Positions 36,164 through 42,410 of a DNA stretch of 63,442 bases are shown here, one piece after another; within the stretch, counting starts at the first letter, position 1; each line of letters starts with the position of its first letter. The DNA is taken from the NCBI RefSeq assembly GCF_900109225.1, contig NZ_FNZK01000024.1:1-63442 (forward strand). Reading direction: 5' to 3'. The notes under the pieces were generated by a model that saw only the letters and a program-made list of their open reading frames with translations, did no database searches and was not told the origin of the DNA. Made by a program: the position numbers and the translations under genes. The stretch is from Propionispira arboris. Its GTDB lineage: Bacteria; Bacillota; Negativicutes; Selenomonadales; Selenomonadaceae.

Positions 36164-36589
36164 TCAGATTTTACTTTTCAATGCAGAAATTTTATGTTGA
36201 TCAAATAGCCCTTGTACTTTTTGGCATAACCTAATAACTCGCTTACCATCTTCTTCCTCTGGTGTGCCATGCTGATAATTTTCCAGTGAACAAATCCCAA
36301 AAATCACATCCAACGATCTTATTTCGGCACTTAATAAAGGCGGAATGATCATAAAAGTTTCAATGGAGTCCATAAGGCAGATATAATTATGATTTCGTGG
36401 CTCTACACCATGCAGATTCGATAAGGCAATTAAATAATTTTCCAAGGCAATAGCCGCCACATTGAACACCACACTATTCGCTTGACCTTCTTGTAAAAAA
36501 TTCTCCGCTCGATGATGAAAACCCTGCGCCGTATGATAGGCTTCGACAAAACTATCGATGTCTGCTTCATTTTGTATGCTATTAATCAT
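36164..36589 (-). CDS. Small helical protein, HEPN-like, in the anf operon
   Basis: 141 residues, no membrane or export signal. Pattern HHRAENFLQEGQANSVVFNVAAIALENYLIAL followed by NHNYICLMDSIE is like the paired helices of HEPN domains, but the RNase-type R-x4-6-H motif is absent, so an RNase role is not supported. It occupies the place where AnfO/AnfR-like accessory genes occur in other Fe-only nitrogenase operons, but does not look like AnfO from memory. Could be a nitrogenase accessory or regulatory protein. GAGG ribosome site eight to nine bases before the ATG. Confidence 0.55.
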   Translation of the reverse strand: MINSIQNEADIDSFVEAYHTAQGFHHRAENFLQEGQANSVVFNVAAIALENYLIALSNLHGVEPRNHNYICLMDSIETFMIIPPLLSAEIRSLDVIFGICSLENYQHGTPEEEDGKRVIRLCQKVQGLFDQHKISALKSKI

Positions 36590-41020: not shown

Positions 41021-41860
<840 letters not shown>

Positions 41861-41998
41861 TCATATTTACATACTTTTTATCCATTGCTAAAAAAACAAA
41901 CTCTTTGTATAAAAAGTGCTGCTCCCACGATTGCCAAAATTCGCCCGCCTCTTTTTACATTGTTCTTGAAAAAAGAAAATCAACCTGTTATAATCGAG

Positions 41999-42081
41999 AA
42001 TGGGTAAATTAAATAGACCTAGTACCACTGGGAATAAAAGATTTGCCTGCGCTTCATGGATATTCGTGGTATCCATGAAGC
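41999..42081 (-). ncRNA. Tandem structured leader element, copy 1 (proximal to anfH)
   Basis: On the minus strand: stem GCTTCATGGATA / TATCCATGAAGC with loop CCACGAA, then after a variable spacer a conserved block CCCAGTGGTACTAGGTCT followed by ATTTAATTTACCCATT. The loop CCAC can pair with GTGG of the second block, giving a pseudoknot. It lies 150 bases before the anfH start, within the predicted leader. Short open frames that cross it change frame between the two copies, so RNA, not protein, appears conserved. It matches no riboswitch class that I recognise. Confidence 0.6.
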
Positions 42082-42185
42082 TTTTTATTTTTTCGGATTT
42101 TATTCGTTTGACCACCTCCTTGCGATATACTCTTAAAATCAAATGAGTTTGCCTGTACGGCAATAGCTAGCGTCTTGAATATAAA

Positions 42186-42275
42186 AATGGGTAAAGTTAA
42201 TAGACCTAGCACCACTGGGATAGAAAAACGATAAAGCTGGCAAAGTTCCCTGGATATTCGTGGTATCCATGAAAC
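42186..42275 (-). ncRNA. Tandem structured leader element, copy 2 (distal)
   Basis: Same architecture as copy 1: stem GTTTCATGGATA / TATCCAGGGAAC with loop CCACGAA and a second block CCCAGTGGTGCTAGGTCT followed by ATTAACTTTACCCATT. Twenty bases of the hairpin are identical between copies. At the second base pair C-G in copy 1 is T-A here, a compensatory change. The spacer between blocks is seven bases longer than in copy 1. Confidence 0.6.
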
Positions 42276-42301
42276 AATTTTGTTCAATTGTCAAAATAAA
42301 A

Positions 42302-42342
42302 TAAAAAAAATCAACCAACCGAATTGCAAAACGGTCAATTGA
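42302..42342 (-). terminator. Promoter-proximal terminator (putative attenuator) of the anf leader
   Basis: TCAATTGACCG pairs with CGGTTGGTTGA over 11 positions (three G-T wobbles), loop of 10, followed by eight T. It lies only about 30 bases after the predicted transcription start and before both structured elements, so reading through it would be needed to express anf. It might instead end readthrough from mmuM, which however has its own terminator. Confidence 0.65.
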
Positions 42343-42381
42343 TACCTCTTTGTACCTGTATTTAATTTTGGATTTACATAT

Positions 42382-42410
42382 AACATATACCAAAAAAGAT
42401 AGAGAGTCAA
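42382..42410 (-). promoter_or_regulatory. Predicted anf operon promoter
   Basis: Minus strand TTGACT (42410-42405), 17-base spacer, TATGTT (42387-42382). It is sigma-A type; no sigma-54 -24/-12 element was found near it. Confidence 0.55.

Follow-up and report, generated by a model that had tools for sequence, protein, structure and literature searches.

The window, the whole stretch of Propionispira arboris DNA that was analysed (63,442 nucleotides), contains an Fe-only nitrogenase operon. The operon was recognised in a preliminary description of the same DNA and is borne out here by profile matches: anfH is followed by two P-II-type genes, anfD, anfG and anfK, all on the minus strand. Beyond anfK lies a gene of 141 amino acids (36164–36589, minus strand) with no NCBIfam or Pfam match; similar-looking open reading frames were noticed by eye after anfK at two further loci (L055 and L057). 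The features of anfH and the region upstream of it are listed below; R1 and R2 are covariance models defined in the text.

41021–41848, minus strand: anfH, the first gene of the operon (TIGR01287, above cut-off)
41966–41994, plus strand: predicted small-RNA promoter, –35 TTGAAA at 41966–41971 and –10 TATAAT at 41989–41994 (promoter scan, 11/12)
42000–42091, plus strand: predicted small RNA of about 90 nt (start placed from the spacing to the –10, end from the terminator)
42002–42048, plus strand: 5′ domain, or ‘block’ (RNAfold of the small-RNA strand; alignment fold for P2)
42002–42010 with 42040–42048, plus strand: stem P1 (RNAfold; P1 permutation test)
42018–42023 with 42027–42032, plus strand: stem P2, inside P1 across an internal loop (RNAfold and alignment fold)
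42051–42093, plus strand: intrinsic terminator, a 12-pair stem (42051–42062/42070–42081) and a T-rich tail (42082–42093) (terminator scan, covariation)
42111–42121, minus strand: AAGGAGGTGGT, Shine-Dalgarno-like, located between the two copies and lacking an obvious start codon (by eye)
42186–42275, plus strand: distal copy, block 42186–42220 and hairpin 42245–42275 (R2 match 42153–42287, plus strand, 50 bits)
42310–42356, minus strand: ANTAR-type attenuator, hairpin GGTAC-AAAGAG-GTATC (42356–42341) whose 3′ arm overlaps a terminator at 42343–42310, then a T-tract
42382–42410, minus strand: candidate anf mRNA promoter TTGACT-17-TATGTT (promoter scan, 9/12)

Much of what was first described in this leader is present. 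The promoter TTGACT-17-TATGTT lies on the minus strand as noted and carries nine of the twelve consensus letters; the scan returned 4 promoter-like sites against 3.5 expected, and taken by itself the call is weak. The early sense terminator is there, its stem being 12 pairs by our count where 11 had been given. The two element copies are real (35 nt at 91% and 30 nt at 90% identity), as are the 7-base difference in their spacers and the change from C-G to T-A at stem position 2, and the 20-base core of the block occurs at just these two places in the genome when up to three mismatches are allowed. That no Rfam class was recognised agrees with our scans: Rfam 15 gave nothing above gathering threshold in the window except 5S rRNA at its end, eight further loci gave no family above that threshold, and a relaxed scan of the leader gave sub-threshold matches alone. 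Inspection by eye shows, in many nitrogenase leaders, a motif close to AAGGAGGTGRTTnTATnG just 5′ (in the sense direction) of the proximal hairpin; it looks like a strong Shine-Dalgarno sequence, but no AUG follows. A leader peptide from the AAGGAGGTG motif was considered and rejected: frames and stops vary between leaders, and no common start codon was seen by eye.

The preliminary description proposed that a covariance model of the two copies be run against Negativicutes genomes. Such a model (R1, hairpin and block only, with no promoter) did find nitrogenase-linked homologues. Matches were obtained in 27 of 200 relatives at E ≤ 0.1, with nitrogenase-linked homologues in other genera reaching E-values down to 1e-19, and in 25 of 380 members of the class at E ≤ 0.01, all 25 falling below 1e-3. 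In 24 of these 25 genomes the match adjoins a nitrogenase operon with nifH, anfH or nifI as its first gene, and several have two or three copies; a match in genome G366 (E 3.4e-5), which lies by non-nitrogenase genes, and weak matches at L026–L029 were kept out of the counts. A second model (R2), built from 27 units and extending from the –35 through the T-tract, was run on 80 fetched regions: 79 upstream of nifH, chosen among the matches listed and three of them shortened by contig ends, plus L159, which is the second R2 place of genome G006. In 32 of the 79 nifH-upstream regions R2 detected a unit (E < 1e-3) oriented divergently to the nitrogenase genes, and one of these regions (L119) was already known from the phylum search; R2 found none in the other 47, which include both other nifH loci of the P. 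arboris genome. Five R2 matches (L163, L164, L167, L178 and L179) were inspected and dropped as unlike the family.

For scale, nifH itself is above cut-off in 98 of the 380 class genomes. R2 matched at least two of 398 genomes across the phylum, eight candidates per genome being scored. A search of contigs with a strict pattern that passes over many true units returned 16 stretches, assigned to Pelosinus, Sporomusa, Propionispora, Propionispira, Sporomusaceae, Selenomonadales and unspecified Bacillota; a search of plasmids gave zero matches. In total 68 units were gathered, 67 of them at nitrogenase operons, and removal of 16 by a non-redundancy filter left 52; the 35 units collected by an expression that requires the promoter exclude exact duplicates. 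The unit is spread over 18 family labels of Negativicutes. Nor is the unit confined to Fe-only nitrogenase. Pelosinus-type genomes (g35) have it at the anf operon and again at a second nif operon, and Mo-type nifD is above the NCBIfam cut-off at two Pelosinus loci with a unit (L184, L186) and in three other genera with one (L051, L052, L054). A divergent copy with promoter and terminator occupies L159 668–775 on the minus strand (also L061, in G006), a region without a nitrogenase gene; its neighbours in G006 are ACT-domain and homoserine dehydrogenase genes.

A critical issue is the strand on which the element is expressed. Simple scans alone already flag the plus strand for the anfH-proximal copy, with TTGAAA-17-TATAAT at 11/12 and a hairpin plus TTTTTATTTT; the 17-base spacer of this promoter ends in TGT, as in an extended –10. 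R2 matches 41966–42093 on the same strand with 130 bits, the window unit being itself among the model's 27 training units. Across the 52 non-redundant units the –35 reads TTGAAA in 45 and the –10 reads TATAAT in 44 and TATACT in 7, spacing is 17 in 49, and every unit has 10–11 of the 12 consensus letters; these counts are biased upward, some units having been picked by the promoter-requiring expression and others by R2, which contains the promoter. The presence of the promoter in at least one unit of all 24 nitrogenase-linked R1 genomes is by contrast an independent result, because R1 has no promoter part. Information is concentrated where a promoter of the unit's own would require it (–35, 1.5–2.0 bits per position; –10, 1.4–2.0 bits) and is low in the spacer (0.28 bits), in the 40 bases upstream (0.24) and in the 40 bases past the terminator (0.15): the TTGAAA-17-TATAAT letters are conserved and the spacer is free. 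Only on this strand does a T-tract come after the 12-pair hairpin, and over the 52 units the nine nucleotides after the hairpin contain on average 6.5 T on the small-RNA strand versus 1.4 on the other.

The same signals appear in mirror image when the leaders are read in the sense direction. Beyond the proximal block, sense leaders with a unit show ATTATA-N17-TTTCAA or near variants, which is TTGAAA-N17-TATAAT on the opposite strand, and the A-rich stretch before the hairpin is the T-tract after it on the other strand. A reading of ATTATAA as a sense-strand nif promoter, considered by eye, was discarded: the conserved –35 sits on the other strand. We are therefore highly confident in predicting that the anfH-proximal copy is a gene for a small RNA on the plus strand, with transcription directed away from anfH. 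Its transcript would run from a sigma-A-type promoter through a structured 5′ domain (P1, internal loop, P2) to an intrinsic terminator.

Structure comparisons support an RNA product. The expectation of a structured, nitrogenase-linked RNA with compensatory changes was borne out: RNAalifold on an alignment of 27 units recovers the terminator stem and P2, the inner stem of the 5′ domain, and at 9 of the 18 pairs both sides vary between units with pairing kept. In many units, folds of single sequences also pair the 5′ end with the linker, giving the outer stem P1. When linkers were permuted among 51 units (segmentation having failed for one of the 52), none of 2000 permutations did as well as the units' own linkers, a result that kinship inflates. 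The 5′ domain is more stable on the small-RNA strand than on the other in 38 of 52 units. Within the ten innermost terminator pairs, G-U outnumbers A-C by 23 to 2 on the small-RNA strand (52 units, p 2e-5).

These comparisons bear on the reading originally given to the locus, namely that two tandem copies of a cis-regulatory RNA (a riboswitch, protein site or antiterminator) act on the sense strand of the leader. The leader is probably transcribed in that direction and the stems do covary; moreover, in the hairpins of 14 distal copies (two of them near-identical) A-C exceeds G-U by 10 to 4 on the small-RNA strand, so that these hairpins favour sense G-U and lean to the sense strand. For the proximal copy the promoter, the T-tract and the 23 to 2 excess of G-U all place the RNA on the opposite strand, and the pair asymmetry that a sense riboswitch should show on the mRNA strand is missing from the 52 units, the distal copies alone leaning that way. 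A pseudoknot between loop CCAC and block GTGG had also been proposed, and such pairing is possible in 7 of the 52 non-redundant units. In the genus Pelosinus the hairpin loop is reverse-complemented with the orientation of the block unchanged, which breaks the pseudoknot and fits a terminator rather than a recognised sense loop. In addition, the Mo-type leaders examined give one copy apart from weak model matches. We consider the tandem sense RNA unsupported as an interpretation of the proximal copy and very unlikely overall.

Loop reversal raises a different possibility: that the palindrome is a double-stranded DNA operator, the binding site of an undescribed activator. The occurrence of the loop in both orientations would suit such a site, as would the distal copies, which keep the block without a consensus promoter. 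But the arms vary while pairing is kept, and G-U falls on one strand, neither of which a dimer site requires, and the promoter and T-tract fit a transcription unit. After the promoter, the T-tract and the G-U asymmetry had been weighed the operator was set aside; we give it scarcely any credence.

The distal copy differs from the small-RNA gene beside it. In the window its block is kept with no consensus promoter (best score 8/12), and the same holds at anf loci generally, where the block is closely kept and the best promoter score is 6–8/12 in 13 copies versus 10–11 in the 52 units. In most of 14 distal copies (L008 and L011 excepted) a T-rich stretch comes after the hairpin on the small-RNA strand; P1 was not evident in the folds of the distal copies. 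By eye, the proximal and distal blocks of some genomes share unusual letters (GTGCAGC in L012, ACCAC in the window), as would fit either pairing or gene conversion, with L033 (CTAC versus CCAC) a counter-example. The distal copy may offer the small RNA a second place to pair, or it may itself be a small-RNA gene whose promoter depends on an activator. The Pelosinus anf loci (L014–L018, L020) show one more hairpin of this type upstream of the distal copy (clear in L016, suggested in the others by minus-strand matches) and an open reading frame of 326–359 amino acids upstream, near the leader.

The early terminator probably belongs to a second regulatory element. ANTAR hexaloops had been said not to fit. 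That judgement stands for the two copies (1 of 52 units has an A1/G4 hexaloop), but the terminator described along with them is itself ANTAR-like: at 42310–42356 a hexaloop with A1 and G4 overlaps the terminator, and a leader from another family (L012) has GGTAC-AAAGGG-GTATC. Of 47 leaders given to the scan, 46 were parsed, and 29 of these have an A1/G4 hexaloop with its 3′ arm over an intrinsic terminator (shuffle mean 0.5, maximum 4), while 26 have a sense promoter of the form TTG-17-TGnTATRnT (shuffle mean 0.44, maximum 3), close relatives among the 46 inflating both counts relative to shuffles. Promoters and attenuators alike are located upstream of the small-RNA unit. The window's sense promoter does not match the stricter TGn form; its start lies 59 nt before the hexaloop, similar to the 54, 55 and 62 nt of L039, L024 and L012. 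Known ANTAR targets consist of two hexaloop hairpins. With stems of at least four pairs, 10 of 46 leaders had two hexaloops and 19 had one, and the window has one before its terminator; the g35 (Pelosinus) anf leaders among those scanned showed no hexaloop.

ANTAR control of a nitrogenase regulon was predicted earlier in Pelobacter carbinolicus, according to the accessible portion of PMC3369931, and the attenuators described here resemble ANTAR targets, that case included, in having an A1/G4 hexaloop over an intrinsic terminator before nitrogenase genes. They differ in that a convergent small-RNA gene comes after, and in that, with stems of at least four pairs, one hexaloop was found more often than two. 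The P. arboris genome encodes two pairs of a HisKA_2 kinase and an ANTAR response regulator (L196 and L197, on contigs C30 and C19), which are candidates for reading the nif/anf attenuators; one pair lies beside a chaperonin (cpn60) gene and the other beside a permease-like gene.

The proximity of ANTAR-type attenuators to the small-RNA gene, together with the two kinase/regulator pairs of the genome, makes it worth asking whether the small RNA acts in trans by binding a protein, for example as an EutX/Rli55-like decoy that captures an ANTAR regulator. Our predicted gene shares with EutX/Rli55 its place at an ANTAR-controlled operon, and EutX is a small RNA under a constitutive promoter in what is available of PMC5821096. 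It departs from that model in the near absence of the A1/G4 signature, which makes a decoy of the known type unlikely and led us to reject it, and in that no cobalamin riboswitch match was returned by Rfam for the window and eight loci. Protein binding more broadly strikes us as improbable, yet less so than either the sense RNA or the operator.

We favour instead a small-RNA gene that lies behind an ANTAR-type attenuator and whose likeliest action is to brake the leader as an antisense RNA, and regard this account as a whole as likely to be correct. The distance from the nifH ATG to the –35 of the small-RNA gene is 19–117 nt in 45 of 46 leaders (300 nt in L011), which leaves scant space for a distinct nif promoter; going by these sequences, transcription of the nif/anf mRNA very probably begins upstream and crosses the small-RNA gene. 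On this arrangement the mRNA would first meet the ANTAR-type attenuator and would then pass through the convergent small-RNA gene, so that leader and small RNA would be complementary over the whole of the small RNA. Pairing, convergent transcription or both could hold leaky nitrogenase expression down, and strong antiterminated transcription might eventually overrun the small-RNA promoter and lift the brake. The braking role itself, taken as a separate claim, we advance tentatively, as a plausible function that may well prove wrong.

A more elaborate and speculative version, which we think doubtful, is a two-layer switch: the ANTAR attenuator would admit transcription and the convergent antisense RNA, its 5′ domain possibly sensing a ligand or protein, would set a threshold, with cross-talk between Mo-nif and anf and with the distal anf copies as landing sites for the small RNA. 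If this were true, then in genomes with both Mo-nif and anf one nitrogenase system could signal to the other.

Antisense RNAs of the CopA/RNAI type act in cis, are about 90 nt long, and have their own promoter, a 5′ stem-loop with an internal loop and a terminator, opposite a leader. The predicted small RNA matches them in size, in its own promoter, in its 5′ stem-loop with internal loop, in its terminator and in being encoded opposite a leader; it is unlike them in being chromosomal, tied to nitrogenase and conserved in sequence between families, and its target is a proposal. To our knowledge, transcriptional control of nitrogenase in Negativicutes has been little studied. Non-coding RNAs linked to nitrogen fixation, as the predicted RNA is, are reviewed in PMC9170634 (NfiS, NfiR, NsiR4, sRNA154 and ArrF), where the accessible text gives targets that include nifK, nifD and nifH mRNA and hosts that, where named, are Pseudomonas, Azotobacter and Methanosarcina, none of them Negativicutes. 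Neither that part of the review nor our search of the literature, in which subscription journals are thinly covered, yielded a small RNA at Negativicutes nif operons. As far as these searches go, antisense small RNAs and ANTAR attenuators are known kinds of element, whereas no description came to light of this small-RNA family, of its link with nitrogenase in Negativicutes or of the two elements nested together.

The small-RNA gene and the ANTAR-type attenuator constitute two defined, mutable control points before Mo and Fe-only operons, and they occur in genera with named isolates (Pelosinus, Sporomusa, Propionispora and Propionispira). The locus also illustrates that a gene on one strand can pass for a tandem leader RNA on the other.

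The conservation of the 5′ block calls for comment. A purely cis-acting antisense RNA need not conserve its sequence, and the fact that the block is conserved all the same points to a further partner. One form that such a partner could take is an mRNA outside the nitrogenase operon, paired in trans by the conserved 5′ part. In its favour the block is conserved beyond the need of cis pairing, including in distal copies that have no consensus promoter; but in the folds P1 takes up much of the 5′ part, and limited target searches, over eight nitrogenase loci and in two genomes, found no target. We rate pairing in trans as unlikely, if somewhat less so than the binding of a protein. RNAduplex over the eight loci gave no site common to all, with energies inflated by long internal loops; a similar site within anfK was among the four best-ranked in the window and L056 and not in the other anf loci scanned. 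A search for the 20-base complement with three mismatches in genomes G000 and G001 returned the two copies and, in each genome, a single additional site that falls on the non-coding strand of a cysK-like gene; the gene, read in G000 only, was rejected as a target, the site being on the wrong strand. The start of this cysK-like gene (L202 1501–1520, contig C32 of the P. arboris genome, a few kb from a nifH locus) reads ATGGGTAAAATAAATAAATC and is conserved in G001; its likeness to the 5′ end of the small RNA is probably a coincidence.
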